Virus record (IMG/VR): IMGVR_UViG_3300044993_000171
Span: 1 to 26,386 of that record
Strand: one strand, 5' to 3'
Length of the DNA stretch: 26,386 bases
From: a virus
Made by a program: the position numbers and the translations under genes
Notes under the pieces: generated by a model
What the model was told of the DNA's origin: nothing
Seen by the model: only the letters and a program-made list of their open reading frames with translations
Database searches by the model: none
Part shown: piece by piece, positions 6,706 to 25,080 of the stretch
Layout: each line of letters starts with the position of its first letter
How positions within the stretch are numbered: the first letter of the stretch is position 1

Positions 6706-6730
6706 GTGCGACTCCCTTCTGGAGTCGCAC
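6706..6730 (+). terminator. Strong stem-loop after the large terminase gene
   Basis: Seven bases after the terminase stop, GTGCGACTCC (6706-6715) pairs perfectly with GGAGTCGCAC (6721-6730) around a 5-base CTTCT loop. A weakly T-rich stretch (ATCATTTCT) follows, so it could be an intrinsic terminator or an mRNA-stabilising 3' hairpin. A canonical U-tract is missing. Confidence 0.55.
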
Positions 6731-8667: not shown

Positions 8668-10653
8668 ATGGACGAGACCACCCTTCTGATCCCGCCGCTT
8701 GTGCGGGCTGCCACCGCGTCGCTGCTCGATCGCGACGGCGAGCGCATTGTCGAGGTCGTCTGGACGACCGGCGCCACGGTGCAGAGGCGTCGGCGCGCCG
8801 GCTGGGACGAGGCCGAGGAATACGACGAGGAGCTTGTCGTCGCGCCGGGGTCCGTGCGCCTTGAGCGGATGCAGGCCGGGGTGCCGTTTCTTGACGGTCA
8901 TCGCGGCTGGTCGGTGGCTTCGGTGCTGGGCTCGGTCGAGCCGGGGTCTGTGCGGATCGAGGGTGGGCGCGGGATCGCCCGCGTGCGGCTGACGGATGCG
9001 CCGGACGCGCAGCCTGCGATCCAGCGCGTGCTGGAGAAACACGTCGCGATCTCGGTCGGCTACCGGGTGCATCGCTACGAGATCATCCGCCGCGAAGGGC
9101 AGCGGGAGCTCTGGCGTGCGGTCGACTGGGAGCCGCTCGAAATCTCGGCCGTGCCGATTCCGGCCGACGCTGGCGCGCACATCCGGGCGGACGAGATCCG
9201 AGATGCCGCGCCTAACAACTGCATCATCATCCGGGCCGAGGCGCCCGCCATCATTCAGGAAAGGAGTCCATCCATGTCTGACGACATCGTCGCCTCGGCT
9301 GCGGAGGCCGAGACCCGCGCCGTGCCGGTCACGGCGTCGCCGCCTGTGGCGGAAATCGACGCCGCGCGTGCGGAGGCCAATCGCACCGCTGCGGAGATTC
9401 TGCGCATCTGCGAGCGGCACGGGCTGCCGCATGGCTTCGCTTCTGAGTTGATCGAGCGCGGGGCGACGCTTGATCAGGCGCGCGCCGCGGTTCTCGACCG
9501 TCTGGCGCAGGACGACATGGTCGGGGCGCGGCGCGCGGAGCCGGCGCCGGCCGCGCCGCGTTCGACCGGAGCGTCGGATGCGGCCTATCGCGACGCCATG
9601 TCGGAAGCGCTGCTGCACCGCCATGCGCCCTCGGAATTTGCGCTGACGGATCGCGGGCGGGAGTTCCGCGGGCTGACGCTGATCGAGCTGGCGCGGCACA
9701 CGCTCGAACGGCGCGGCGTCTCGACCCGTGGCATGTCGAAGATGGAGGTGGCGACCGAGGCGCTCCTGGGCCGCGCCGGGCTGCACTCCACCAGCGATTT
9801 CCCCTTCATCCTCGCGAACGTGGCGAACAAGACGCTGCGGCGGGCCTACGAGTCGACGCCGCGGACCTTCACCGCCTGGGCGCGGCAGCGGACCATCGTC
9901 GACTTCAAGCCGGTGTCGGTCACGCAGCTCGGCGGCGCTCCCTCGCTGCTGGCGGTGCCGGAGTCGGGGGAATTCACCTACGGCACGATCGGCGAGGGTC
10001 GCGAGGTCTATGCGCTGCTCACCTACGGGCGGATCGTTGGCATCACGCGGCAGGTGCTGGTAAACGACGATCTCGACGCATTCACCCGCGTGCCGGCGGC
10101 CTACGGCGCGGCGGCTGCGGACCTCGAGTCGGATATTGTTTACTCGATCCTCACCGGAAACCCGCTCATGGCGGACGGGCAGCCGCTGTTCCACAGCTCG
10201 CACGGCAACCTCGGGACCGCCGCGGCGATCACCGAGGCGTCGCTGGCCGAGGCCTACCGGCTCTTCGGCGCCCAGCGCGGGCTGGACGGGCGGCAGATCA
10301 GCGTCCTGCCGCGCTTCATCATCACGCCGCCCGGCGCGCGGTCGGTGGAGGCGCGGAAGAACGTCACGGCGACCACGCCGGAGGCGGTGAGCGGCGTGAA
10401 CCCGTTCGCGAACCGTCTCGAGCCGATCGAGGAGGCGCGCCTGATCGCGGCCAGTGGTCCTGATCCGTGGTTCCTCGCGGCGGACCCGGCGCGGATCGAC
10501 ACGATCGAGTATGCCTATCTCGAAGGCCAGCAGGGCGTCTACACCGAGGTCCGCCAAGGCTTCGAGGTGGACGGGATCGAGATCAAGGCGCGGCATGACT
10601 TCGCCGCGAAGGCGATCGACTGGCGCGGCCTCTTCCGCAACGCCGGCGTGTGA
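8668..10653 (+). CDS. Fused prohead protease / major capsid protein
   Basis: A single 661-residue frame combines capsid maturation protease and major capsid protein. Residues 1 to about 195 are a prohead protease of the S78/HK97-like type, with the probable catalytic His78 in FLDGHRGW and Ser129 in VAISVGYRVH, followed by VDWEPLEISAVPIPAD. Residues from about 203 hold a charged helical stretch (AARAEANRTAAEILRICE) that resembles a scaffolding or delta domain, then an HK97-fold capsid protein (about 310-661: FPFILANVANKTLRRAYE, VYALLTYGRIVGITRQ, GNPLMADGQPLFHSSHGN). Protease-capsid fusions are known in Mu-like and related phages. The ATG at 8668 is preferred, 4 bases after the portal stop; an in-frame GTG at 8632 overlaps the portal. 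A strong internal start at 9274 would yield the capsid part alone. Confidence 0.92.
   Translation: MDETTLLIPPLVRAATASLLDRDGERIVEVVWTTGATVQRRRRAGWDEAEEYDEELVVAPGSVRLERMQAGVPFLDGHRGWSVASVLGSVEPGSVRIEGGRGIARVRLTDAPDAQPAIQRVLEKHVAISVGYRVHRYEIIRREGQRELWRAVDWEPLEISAVPIPADAGAHIRADEIRDAAPNNCIIIRAEAPAIIQERSPSMSDDIVASAAEAETRAVPVTASPPVAEIDAARAEANRTAAEILRICERHGLPHGFASELIERGATLDQARAAVLDRLAQDDMVGARRAEPAPAAPRSTGASDAAYRDAMSEALLHRHAPSEFALTDRGREFRGLTLIELARHTLERRGVSTRGMSKMEVATEALLGRAGLHSTSDFPFILANVANKTLRRAYESTPRTFTAWARQRTIVDFKPVSVTQLGGAPSLLAVPESGEFTYGTIGEGREVYALLTYGRIVGITRQVLVNDDLDAFTRVPAAYGAAAADLESDIVYSILTGNPLMADGQPLFHSSHGNLGTAAAITEASLAEAYRLFGAQRGLDGRQISVLPRFIITPPGARSVEARKNVTATTPEAVSGVNPFANRLEPIEEARLIAASGPDPWFLAADPARIDTIEYAYLEGQQGVYTEVRQGFEVDGIEIKARHDFAAKAIDWRGLFRNAGV
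9257..9276 (+). promoter_or_regulatory. Internal ribosome-binding site and start for stand-alone capsid protein
   Basis: AGGAAAGGAG at 9257-9266 lies 7 bases before an in-frame ATG at 9274-9276, giving a near-ideal Shine-Dalgarno arrangement inside the protease/capsid gene. Translation from here gives a 459-residue protein beginning MSDDIVASAAEAE, exactly the scaffold plus capsid part. It is one of the best ribosome-binding sites in the window. Confidence 0.75.
9274..10653 (+). CDS. Major capsid protein from internal in-frame start (nested)
   Basis: This is the nested product of the protease/capsid gene, 459 residues. It starts at the junction between the protease domain and the helical scaffold-like segment and contains the entire HK97-fold shell protein. 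Capsids need hundreds of shell subunits but few protease copies, so an internal start with a stronger ribosome-binding site would supply the excess. Lambda uses the same trick for the Nu3 scaffold inside the C protease gene. The product is inferred from the sequence signal. The alternative is that all capsid protein comes from proteolysis of the fusion. Confidence 0.65.
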   Translation: MSDDIVASAAEAETRAVPVTASPPVAEIDAARAEANRTAAEILRICERHGLPHGFASELIERGATLDQARAAVLDRLAQDDMVGARRAEPAPAAPRSTGASDAAYRDAMSEALLHRHAPSEFALTDRGREFRGLTLIELARHTLERRGVSTRGMSKMEVATEALLGRAGLHSTSDFPFILANVANKTLRRAYESTPRTFTAWARQRTIVDFKPVSVTQLGGAPSLLAVPESGEFTYGTIGEGREVYALLTYGRIVGITRQVLVNDDLDAFTRVPAAYGAAAADLESDIVYSILTGNPLMADGQPLFHSSHGNLGTAAAITEASLAEAYRLFGAQRGLDGRQISVLPRFIITPPGARSVEARKNVTATTPEAVSGVNPFANRLEPIEEARLIAASGPDPWFLAADPARIDTIEYAYLEGQQGVYTEVRQGFEVDGIEIKARHDFAAKAIDWRGLFRNAGV

Positions 10654-10700
10654 TCCTGAGCCTGCCATTGCTCGTCGCGCTGGTGTCGGCGCGGACGAGC

Positions 10701-10737
10701 GGCGGCCCGGTTGCTTTCCTCCCTCGGCCGGGCCGCC
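10701..10737 (+). terminator. Stem-loop after the capsid gene
   Basis: GGCGGCCCGG at 10701-10710 pairs perfectly with CCGGGCCGCC at 10728-10737 around a 17-base pyrimidine-rich loop, followed by TTGTCCTCC. It lies 47 bases after the capsid stop in the 117-base gap before the DUF2190 gene. It may act as a partial terminator or as a 3' stabiliser of capsid mRNA; there is no real U-tract. Confidence 0.45.
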
Positions 10738-21120: not shown

Positions 21121-24100
21121 ATGGCCACGCTTGTCCTCGGTGCTGTTGGTTCCGCCATCGGCGGCGCAGTCGGCGGCTCGATTCTGGGCGTGAGTGCCGC
21201 GACCATCGGCGGCGTCATCGGTTCCACCATCGGCACGGTGGTGGACAGCTGGATCGTGTCGTCGCTCACGCCGCCGCAGCGGATCGAAGGCCAGCGGCTC
21301 GACAGCCTGCGGATCACCTCGTCGACTGAGGGTGCCGTGATCCCGCGCCTCTACGGGCGCATGCGCATCGGCGGCAACGTCATCTGGGCGACCGATTTTC
21401 GCGAGGAGATCAGCACCACCAGGCAGGGTGGCAAGGGCGGCGGCCGACGAGTGGAGACCAGTGAATATCTCTACACGGCCAGCTTTGCCGTGGCACTCTG
21501 CGAGGGCCCGATCACCGGCATCGGCCGCATCTGGGCGGACGGCAAGCCCATGGACATGACCGGCGTCACCTGGCGCTGGTATCCGGGCAATGAGAGCCAG
21601 ACGGCCGATCCCTTCATCGCGGCGAAGATGGGGGCTGCCAACACGCCGGCCTATCGCGGCACGGCCTATGTGGTCTTCGAGGAACTCCCGCTTTCGACCT
21701 TCGGCAACCGCCTGCCGCAGCTGTCGTTCGAGGTCTTCCGGCCGCTGGCCGACGCCGACACCGCCGAAGGGCTGGTCAAGGCGGTGACGATGATCCCGGC
21801 GTCTGGCGAATTCGTCTATGCCACGGAGACGATCCGCAAGGGCACGGGCGGGACGACTGCAGCCGAGAACCAGAACGCAGTGCCGGACAAGGCCGACATG
21901 GTCGTGGCCCTTGATCGGCTGCAGGCCATGGCCCCGGCCGTGGAGAGCGTCAGCCTGGTCGTGAGCTGGTTCGGCGACGACCTGCGCGCGGGCAACTGCC
22001 AGATCAGGCCGGGCGTGGAGGCGGCAGCCAAGACCACCAGCCCGAAGGTCTGGTCCGTGAATGGCGTGACGCGGGCGCAAGCCGTTTTGCTCGACAGCGA
22101 TGACGAGGGGCGTCCTGTCTATGGCGGCACGCCGGCGGACTTCGCGGTGGTGCAGGCGATCCAGGAGATGAAGGCGCGCGGGCTGCGCGTCACCTTCTAT
22201 CCCTTCGTCATGATGAACGTGCCGCCCGGCAACACGCTGCCCAATCCCTACAGCGACAACGCGGCCGGGGTGGGGCAGCCGGTCTTTCCTTGGCGCGGGC
22301 GGATCACCTGCTCGCCGGCGGCGGGCTTTGCCGGGAGCGTGGACAAGACGGTGGCTGCCGCGGCGCAGGTCGACGCCTTCTTCGGCACCGCCACCCCGGC
22401 GGATTTCGCGGTGTCGGGCGACACTGTGACATGGACCGGCCCCGACGATGACTGGGGCCTGCGCCGGATGATCCTGCACTATGCCCATCTCTGTGCGGTG
22501 GCAGGCGGGGTCGATGCCTTCCTGATCGGCACCGAGATGCGCGGGCTGACCACGATCCGCTTGAGCGCCAGCGTCTATCCCGCCGTCACTGCCTTCAAGG
22601 CGCTGGCGGCGGATGTGCGGACGATCCTCGGGCCGGACACCAAGGTCGGCTATGCGGCGGACTGGTCGGAATACTTCGGCCATCATCCGCAGGATGGCAG
22701 CGGAGACGTGTTCTTCCACCTCGACCCGCTCTGGTCGGATGCCAACATCGATTTCGTGGGCATCGACAACTACATGCCGCTATCGGACTGGCGCGACGGG
22801 TTCGAGCACCTCGATGCGCAGGCAGGCTGGCCGGCAATCTACGACCGCGCCTATCTGCAATCGAACATCGCGGGCGGCGAGGGCTTCGACTGGTTCTACG
22901 CCAGCGCTGCCGACCGGGCGGCGCAGACGCGCACGCCCATCACCGACGGCGCCTATGGCAAGCCCTGGGTCTTCCGCTACAAGGACCTGCGCGCCTGGTG
23001 GTCGAACCCACACTACGACCGGCCGGGCGGGGTGGAGAGCGGCACGCCGACCGCATGGGTGCCGGAGTCGAAGCCCATTCGGTTCACCGAGCTCGGCTGC
23101 CCGGCGGTGGATCGCGGCACGAACCAGCCGAACGTCTTCTTCGACCCGAAGTCGTCGGAGAGCTTCATTCCGTATTTCTCCCGCGGCTGGCGCGACGATG
23201 CCATCCAGCGCGCCTATCTCGAGGCGAGCTATCTCTGGTGGGGCGAGGCGGCCAACAACCCGACCTCCTCGGTCTACGGCGGCCCGATGGTGCATGTGCC
23301 AGAATGCGCGGCCTGGACCTGGGATGCGCGGCCCTATCCCTTCTTTCCGGAGCGGGCGGACATCTGGGGCGATGGGCCGAACTGGCGCCTCGGCCACTGG
23401 CTGACGGGACGGCTCGGCGCGGTGTCGCTGGCGGCCCTCGTTCGGCACCTCTGCCTGCGCGCGGGCCTGTCCGAGTCGCGCATCGATGTCTCCGGCCTCT
23501 GGGGTGCGGTCGAGGGCTATGTGATCGGCGCGCTGGAAAGCCCGCGCGCGTCCATCACCACGCTGGCGCGCCACTTCGGTTTCGACGCTGTCGAGACCGA
23601 GGGCGTGATCCGTTTCGTGATGCGCGGGCGCGCCTCGGTCGCGACGCTGGCCCTCGACGATCTGGTCGCCAGCCGCGAGGGCGAGGATTTCGAGCTGACC
23701 CGCGGTCAGGAGACGGAACTGCCGCAAGCGCTGAAGTGGCAGGTCGCGCGGTCCGATGAGGACTATGACGCGGCTCTCGTCGAAGCCCGCCGCATCACCG
23801 TGGACACCACCCGCATCTCCTCTGAGAGCTTCCCCATGGCGATCCCGCCCGAGGAGGCGGAACGCCGCTGCCGCCGCGCGCTGATGGAAGCCTGGATCGG
23901 CCGGGAAACCGCGACCTTCCGTCTGCCGCCCTCGCGCCTTGCCCTTGACCCGGCCGACGTGATCCGGCTCACGAATGACGGCCGGGAGGTGGAATTCCGC
24001 CTTGTGTCGGTCGCCGACGCTGAGGCGCGCGGCATCGAGGCCGTCCACCAGGACCGCGCCGTCTACGATCTGCCGCCCGGCGATCCGCGCCCGACCTCGC

Positions 24101-25080
24101 TTGCCAGTCCCGTGGTCTTCGGCACGCCGGAGGTGGCGATGCTGGACCTGCCGCAGATCAGCGAGGACCAGCCCGCCCATCGCCCGCTGATCGCCGCCCA
24201 TGCCAGCCCATGGCCCGGCGAGATCGCGGTCTTCCGCAGCCCATCCACGGATGGGTTCACGTTGCTGACCACCTTCGGCAGCCGCGCGCGGATCGGCACG
24301 CTGGCCTTCGACGTCTTTCCGGGGCCGACCTCGCGCTTCGATCTGGGAAACGCGCTGGTGGTCGATCTGCTGTCCGGGACGCTCGAAAGCGTGACCGACG
24401 TCGCGCTGTTCGGCGGTGCCAATGCGCTGGCAGTGGAGGCCGCGCCGGGAGTCTGGGAGATCGTCCAGGCTGGCCAAGCTGAACTGATCGCCCCGCGCCG
24501 CTACCGCCTGACCCGCCTGCTGCGGGGCCAGCGCGGGACGGAGCATGCCATGGGCAACCCGGCCCCGGCCGGGGCGCGGGTGGTGGTGCTGGATCGGCAG
24601 CTGGCGGTGCTGCCTGTGGCCGAGGCCGACCTCGGTCTGCCGTGGAACTGGCGCGTGGGTCCGGCTTCACGGGCGGTCAGCGACGCGAGCTACACCGCGC
24701 TGGGCTTCACCCCGACCGGACGGGGCCTCGTCCCCTTCGCGCCGGTCCATGTCGAGCAGCCCTGGCGGACGGCCCGCAGCCCGGGCGACTTGACGATCCG
24801 CTGGACGCGACGATCCCGGGCACTGACGGCCGATGCCTGGGAGCAGGTCGAGGTGCCGCTGGCCGAAGACATCGAGGGGTATGACGTTCAGATCCTTGAT
24901 GGCCAGGCCGTCAAGCGCACGCTGACCAGCGGCACGACCTCCGTGGTCTACTCGGCCGCGCAGCAGACCGCCGACTGGGGCGCGCCGCTCGGACCCGGCC
25001 AGACGCTGGCGATCCGCATCTACCAGCTCTCGAACCGCCTCGGCCGCGGCACGCCCGCTTCGGTGACCCTGCAGTTCTGA
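21121..25080 (+). CDS. Tail-tip megatron protein with TIM-barrel domain (GTA gp15-like)
   Basis: This 1319-residue baseplate protein corresponds to the GTA megatron, formerly called host specificity protein. The N-terminus has Gly-rich hydrophobic stretches (GAVGSAIGGAVGGSILGVSA and ATIGGVIGSTIGTVVDSWIV) that may line or plug the channel. A first domain with GAVIPRLYGRMRIGGNVIWA follows. The glycoside-hydrolase-like TIM barrel covers about residues 430-730 (FLIGTEMRGLTTIR, GYAADWSEYFGHHPQDGSGD, DFVGIDNYMPLSDW, RFTELGCPAVDRGTNQPNVF). A tail-protein domain (about 740-960) and a beta-rich C-terminal part (RYRLTRLLRGQRGTEHAMG) complete it. It may bind or degrade surface glycans. The ATG is 10 bases after the peptidase stop. 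Confidence 0.94.
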   Translation: MATLVLGAVGSAIGGAVGGSILGVSAATIGGVIGSTIGTVVDSWIVSSLTPPQRIEGQRLDSLRITSSTEGAVIPRLYGRMRIGGNVIWATDFREEISTTRQGGKGGGRRVETSEYLYTASFAVALCEGPITGIGRIWADGKPMDMTGVTWRWYPGNESQTADPFIAAKMGAANTPAYRGTAYVVFEELPLSTFGNRLPQLSFEVFRPLADADTAEGLVKAVTMIPASGEFVYATETIRKGTGGTTAAENQNAVPDKADMVVALDRLQAMAPAVESVSLVVSWFGDDLRAGNCQIRPGVEAAAKTTSPKVWSVNGVTRAQAVLLDSDDEGRPVYGGTPADFAVVQAIQEMKARGLRVTFYPFVMMNVPPGNTLPNPYSDNAAGVGQPVFPWRGRITCSPAAGFAGSVDKTVAAAAQVDAFFGTATPADFAVSGDTVTWTGPDDDWGLRRMILHYAHLCAVAGGVDAFLIGTEMRGLTTIRLSASVYPAVTAFKALAADVRTILGPDTKVGYAADWSEYFGHHPQDGSGDVFFHLDPLWSDANIDFVGIDNYMPLSDWRDGFEHLDAQAGWPAIYDRAYLQSNIAGGEGFDWFYASAADRAAQTRTPITDGAYGKPWVFRYKDLRAWWSNPHYDRPGGVESGTPTAWVPESKPIRFTELGCPAVDRGTNQPNVFFDPKSSESFIPYFSRGWRDDAIQRAYLEASYLWWGEAANNPTSSVYGGPMVHVPECAAWTWDARPYPFFPERADIWGDGPNWRLGHWLTGRLGAVSLAALVRHLCLRAGLSESRIDVSGLWGAVEGYVIGALESPRASITTLARHFGFDAVETEGVIRFVMRGRASVATLALDDLVASREGEDFELTRGQETELPQALKWQVARSDEDYDAALVEARRITVDTTRISSESFPMAIPPEEAERRCRRALMEAWIGRETATFRLPPSRLALDPADVIRLTNDGREVEFRLVSVADAEARGIEAVHQDRAVYDLPPGDPRPTSLASPVVFGTPEVAMLDLPQISEDQPAHRPLIAAHASPWPGEIAVFRSPSTDGFTLLTTFGSRARIGTLAFDVFPGPTSRFDLGNALVVDLLSGTLESVTDVALFGGANALAVEAAPGVWEIVQAGQAELIAPRRYRLTRLLRGQRGTEHAMGNPAPAGARVVVLDRQLAVLPVAEADLGLPWNWRVGPASRAVSDASYTALGFTPTGRGLVPFAPVHVEQPWRTARSPGDLTIRWTRRSRALTADAWEQVEVPLAEDIEGYDVQILDGQAVKRTLTSGTTSVVYSAAQQTADWGAPLGPGQTLAIRIYQLSNRLGRGTPASVTLQF

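Follow-up and report, generated by a model that had tools for sequence, protein, structure and literature searches.

A conserved internal translation start in a fused phage protease-capsid gene suggests two nested, in-frame products

The fused protease-capsid gene

The window analyzed here is the whole of a 26,386-base IMG/VR virus record, on the plus strand of which an uninterrupted frame at positions 8668-10653 (ATG at 8668, stop codon at 10651-10653) combines a protease and a capsid protein in a single polypeptide of 661 amino acids. The gene follows those for the terminase, the head-tail adaptor and the portal, and is itself followed by decoration and head-tail genes, which is the usual location of a capsid gene. 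In profile searches, the protein matched the NCBIfam family NF045541, “prohead protease/major capsid protein fusion”, with 766.8 bits (cut-off 525) and over nearly the full length (residues 25-660 aligned with positions 5-633 of the 634 in the profile), and it was also assigned to phrog_4523. Among Pfam families, Peptidase_S78 was detected at residues 59-174 (23.1 bits, cut-off 21) and Phage_capsid_4 (PF25209) at residues 365-658, with no match of the 661-residue protein to CLP_protease; the score for NF045540 was below its cut-off (329.8 vs 475 bits), with an alignment that started only at residue 193. Foldseek searches retrieved encapsulins and HK97-fold phage shells with E-values of about 1e-8. 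The fusion of an S78-like protease to an HK97-fold capsid protein, as proposed in the initial annotation of this locus, is thus borne out by NF045541, Pfam and Foldseek. The features of the gene and its 3' flank are as follows.

8668..10653, + strand: fused S78-type prohead protease, linker, scaffold-like region and HK97-fold major capsid protein (NF045541, Pfam, phrog_4523)
8668..8670, + strand: upstream ATG, start of the long product, 4 nt past the portal stop codon
8707..9159, + strand: protease domain, beta-rich, about residues 14-164 (model)
9160..9345, + strand: linker, residues 165-226, pLDDT mostly below 50, containing the internal start (model)
9260..9266, + strand: putative internal Shine-Dalgarno (SD) sequence AAAGGAG (sequence; conserved site, synonymous constraint at the SD codon)
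9274..9276, + strand: internal ATG, Met203, predicted start of a 459-residue short scaffold-capsid product (invariant column)
9349..9534, + strand: scaffold-like helices, residues 228-289 (model)
9565..10650, + strand: HK97-fold major capsid domain, residues 300-661 (Foldseek, PF25209, model)
10670..10737, + strand: two strong hairpins between the capsid stop codon and the decoration gene (-56 kcal/mol, z -2.9)

Domain architecture

The AlphaFold2 model, built from an alignment of 43 sequences (mean pLDDT 77.8, pTM 0.53), delineates the domains listed above, with a second low-confidence break at residues 286-299. In the protease domain, His78, Ser129 and Glu158 are invariant across the homologue alignment and presumably fit the catalytic residues of S78 peptidases, an assignment that draws on knowledge of this family. 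The modelled helices of residues 228-289 appear comparable to the delta domain of HK97 and would probably function as a scaffold.

Met203 is one of only 27 invariant residues of the protein and sits in the low-confidence linker, which is predicted to be disordered. According to the model, a product initiated at Met203 would be a scaffold-capsid precursor of 459 residues, resembling gp5 of HK97, and not the stand-alone capsid protein that had been suggested previously, given that the short frame retains the scaffold helices. The start is indeed located at a domain boundary, namely at the end of the protease, but this boundary separates the protease from the scaffold rather than from the capsid.

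Conservation of the internal start in fused homologues

The AAGGAG sequence, initially described as near-perfect and located 7 bases ahead of an in-frame ATG at 9274, was found at these coordinates: the 7-nt spacer is TCCATCC, and the protein initiated there would begin with MSDDIVAS. A GTG codon in the same frame, 16 codons past Met203, is preceded by a site with a comparable SD energy in the window; it is not conserved.

We fetched 158 related loci, of which 136 fused frames, including the window, were kept; at less than 90% identity, these amount to 57 non-redundant homologues, mostly from alphaproteobacterial prophages and phages. The survey of fused genes for a conserved internal ribosome-binding site, which the initial annotation had recommended, was positive in this set: the junction contains an ATG in frame, preceded by an SD match of 4 nt or longer, in 57/57 non-redundant homologues (136/136 fused loci in the full set), counts that do not represent independent trials because the homologues share ancestry. 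Among the 588 other in-frame ATGs in the same genes, 17% have an SD match, and when the whole gene was scanned with one rule applied everywhere, the frequency was 100% at the junction and at most 17.5% elsewhere, with the junction and the gene start set aside. The junction sequences include AAGGAG, AAGGAGG, ACGAGG, AAAGGA, GGAGG and other variants; in one homologue (L058), there is only a weak match (GTGA/GAGAG).

Relative to the reading frame, the SD sequence is found in each of the three codon phases, and its translations comprise 57 different pentapeptides in the 57 homologues. When mapped onto the tree, the phase changes about 13 times, and at least 6 of these changes are forced by well-supported branches; they constitute the part of the evidence that is least open to the objection of shared ancestry. 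Taken together, the three phases, the diversity of the encoded peptides and the forced phase changes indicate that selection acts on the RNA rather than on the peptide. Furthermore, among pairs of sequences that share the residue, the synonymous difference at codon -3 is 0.08 compared to 0.43 gene-wide. Comparison of the homologues shows that the internal ATG and its putative SD sequence are not a chance occurrence and that the predicted internal start is subject to selection at the nucleotide level.

Structure of the mRNA and relative strength of the two starts

Across the homologues, 44-nt stretches fold with a mean energy of -6.0 kcal/mol at the internal ATG vs about -12 to -15 kcal/mol further out, and the G+C content upstream of the internal ATG is 0.55 compared to 0.66 gene-wide, so that, in this family, the internal site is the least structured mRNA of its surroundings. 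In the window itself, the site is more open than most of the gene (percentile 0.85), although shuffled versions of its 61 nt are no more structured (z 0.29). No Rfam family matched in the window.

The upstream start of the homologues is an ATG with an SD-like site, located about 30 residues ahead of the protease domain. In SD energy, the two starts hardly differ (family medians of -6.3 for the first and -5.9 for the internal start), and a stronger internal SD sequence was therefore rejected as proof of a high ratio of short to long product; SD energy by itself lends no support to the earlier notion of a minor fusion and a major short form. Judging from the sequences, the short form would benefit from the openness of the mRNA around its start, and we infer that this form is more abundant than the long one.

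Fusions to ClpP-type proteases and distant relatives

In relatives of F10 and mEp460, a ClpP-type protease (Pfam CLP_protease) is joined to a capsid protein of the same family as that of the window gene. In these sets, an SD sequence and an ATG are found at the protease/scaffold junction in 29/29 non-redundant genes, with AGGA kept 9-11 nt ahead of the ATG. The synonymous difference at the SD codon is 0.000 vs 0.49, and the first SD codon is xAG in 31/31 representatives, although xAA is synonymous and xAG accounts for 58% of such codons. The SD codons of these genes also encode a conserved [EKQ][ED][FY] motif and, because the protein sequence at the SD site is itself conserved, the ClpP-type family provides somewhat weaker evidence. 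In the fused capsid gene of Gifsy-2, annotated as a Clp protease, AGGAG is located 9 nt before Met221, and in Rhodobacter phage RcDormio, AAGGA precedes an internal ATG (Met214) by 6 nt.

More distant S78 genes present a mixed picture. In the Firmicutes-side set from Paenibacillus phages, the SD-ATG combination is present in only 62%, and in Shewanella phage 1/44, Vibrio phage 1.049 and Bordetella phage PBb002, there is a methionine at the junction, with a weak SD sequence or none. Two capsid genes of Planctomycete prophages (L151 and L157) have an SD sequence and an ATG at the equivalent place (M213 and M229, respectively), downstream of a long N-terminal region without a Pfam protease match.

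Split and stand-alone relatives

Six relatives, mostly from Rhizobiales, encode the protease and the capsid protein in separate genes. In the capsid tree, these split relatives appear in more than one place among the fused genes, requiring at least 3 label changes, and a fused gene from Camelimonas (L128) nests inside a split group. Stand-alone capsid genes are present in the capsid family as well. The existence of the split relatives and stand-alone genes implies that the capsid cistron is functional with a start of its own, and it appears likely that such a cistron can gain or lose an in-frame protease while capsid translation is kept.

In the split relatives (L135, L137, L138, L139, L140 and L143), the separate capsid protein starts with a hydrophobic segment that resembles a signal peptide and ends in AxA (MKFSKSILMLVVGAAIAASMFLLSADAFAAP..., e.g. 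L138:3712-3830), an unusual N-terminus for a phage shell protein, and the upstream protease ends in a conserved RMRMR motif.

Two products from one gene

The reading that we favor, to which we assign a probability of roughly 0.87 on comparative grounds, is that the locus is a nested in-frame gene with two products, a protease-scaffold-capsid polypeptide and a scaffold-capsid precursor, which would co-assemble such that the long form delivers the protease. Initiation at 8668 would yield the long polypeptide, and initiation at 9274 would yield a precursor comparable to HK97 gp5. The two forms would assemble together through their common scaffold and capsid parts, the long form carrying the protease into the prohead, where the protease would remove the scaffold segments and itself prior to DNA packaging. 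We infer initiation at 9274 and the cleavage; co-assembly of the fusion is a plausible extrapolation from HK97, lambda and Gifsy-2. The original proposal of one gene with two products via an internal start accordingly gains comparative support from conservation, phase changes, synonymous constraint, open mRNA and the ClpP-type fusions, with initiation itself being a prediction.

The strongest competing explanation also involves two products and holds that the internal start mainly keeps capsid translation independent of the protease, so that the fusion is a tolerated read-through and not a delivery device. The interconversion of split and fused genes and the existence of stand-alone capsid genes fit this explanation, which we nevertheless view as rather unlikely because the fusion is kept over deep divergence and involves two unrelated proteases, suggesting that the linkage is useful.

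Much less probable is the production of the full-length fusion only, with the protease releasing itself by cleavage of the linker in cis and the SD sequence being a leftover from formerly separate genes. The phage records examined list the fusion as one protein, and a fossil start is conceivable given that split relatives exist; a fossil SD, however, would decay, whereas this site persists in all the diverged homologues, with the SD-ATG spacing kept across the phase shifts, and synonymous constraint and open mRNA also oppose this possibility. A vestigial ribosome-binding site following a recent fusion was likewise rejected on the basis of deep conservation and the phase shifts.

That the methionine and the purine-rich stretch are a protein feature, such as a protease cleavage site, would account for the invariance of Met203, the Pro, Ser or Thr that often follows it and the motif encoded by the ClpP-type SD codons, but this is highly improbable considering the diversity of pentapeptides ahead of the methionine in the S78 family, for which conservation at the peptide level was rejected, the exclusive use of xAG in the ClpP-type codon, and the fact that Pro, Ser or Thr after an initiator methionine is also typical of N-terminal methionine removal. 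A functional start, as opposed to a fossil or a peptide motif, would predict the conservation, the phase shifts, the synonymous constraint and the open mRNA that were observed.

Beyond the gene in the window, the tailed-phage “fusions” of NF045541 and NF045540 are probably nested two-start genes in general; the evolutionary unit would then be a scaffold-capsid cistron equipped with a ribosome-binding site, to which unrelated proteases (S78 or ClpP) have been joined in frame upstream, and the choice of start would set the number of protease-bearing subunits.

Relationship to known systems

The closest precedent for the nested arrangement is the C/Nu3 gene pair of lambda, in which the long product contains the protease and the short product, made from an internal in-frame start, lacks it, while the shared C-terminal part permits co-assembly. 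Comparative evidence points to a similar arrangement in the window gene, with a conserved internal start in frame where the protease domain ends. In lambda, however, only the scaffold is shared and the shell protein E has a gene of its own, whereas the shared part of the window gene includes the shell protein, and its protease is of the S78 type. The idea of a C/Nu3-like device applied to the shell protein itself is thus upheld with respect to the conserved nested start and a short frame that includes the HK97-fold capsid, and stays provisional with respect to initiation. The window gene shares with Gifsy-2 and the NF045540 family the protease-scaffold-capsid order in one gene, a homologous capsid, and a similar internal ATG with AGGAG, but their ClpP-type protease is unrelated in sequence to the S78 protease of the window. 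With HK97 gp4 and gp5, it shares an S78-type protease with conserved His and Ser and a scaffold N-terminal to the capsid in the short product; in HK97, however, each of the two proteins has its own gene, and the protease enters through binding, not by fusion. Fused scaffolds give a 1:1 ratio of scaffold to capsid, as pointed out for HK97 (PMC10275583), and a two-start design would decouple the protease dose from this ratio.

The fusion itself is already on record under its own name in databases, and lambda C/Nu3 is an established example of nested protease/scaffold starts. Passages of a paper on RcC phages (PMC8601537) report the protease-capsid fusion in Rhodobacter phage RcDormio (cluster RcC), which belongs to the same family as the window gene (NF045541/phrog_4523); they treat it as a single product and do not mention an internal start. 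A search of the full-text literature, the coverage of which leaves out most subscription journals so that it is weak evidence for novelty, returned no account of protease-capsid fusions having an internal start, and papers on P1 and on a Pseudoalteromonas phage likewise contained nothing of relevance. If the two-product reading is correct, a common class of annotations misses one product, with the shell subunit starting about 200 residues later than annotated, and the lambda C/Nu3 principle applies not just to the scaffold but also to the shell protein. It would also explain how fused and split genes interconvert without loss of capsid production, and would offer a genetically simple route to asking how many protease copies are needed per prohead.

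Additional features of the locus

The region of the two hairpins that follow the capsid stop codon has z < -2 in 43% of the homologues, and in mEp460, a terminator is annotated at the equivalent place. These hairpins could attenuate the expression of the downstream genes or protect the capsid mRNA. A further hairpin, near-perfect in its pairing, GTGCGACTCC-CTTCT-GGAGTCGCAC (positions 6706-6730, z -4.7), lies between the terminase and head-tail adaptor genes, which are about 200 nt apart. The tail module at 21121-25080 includes the “megatron” baseplate protein of the GTA type (NF048004, 1870 bits) and a tape measure protein with a weak RcGTA match; this tail module is joined to a lambda-type head module.
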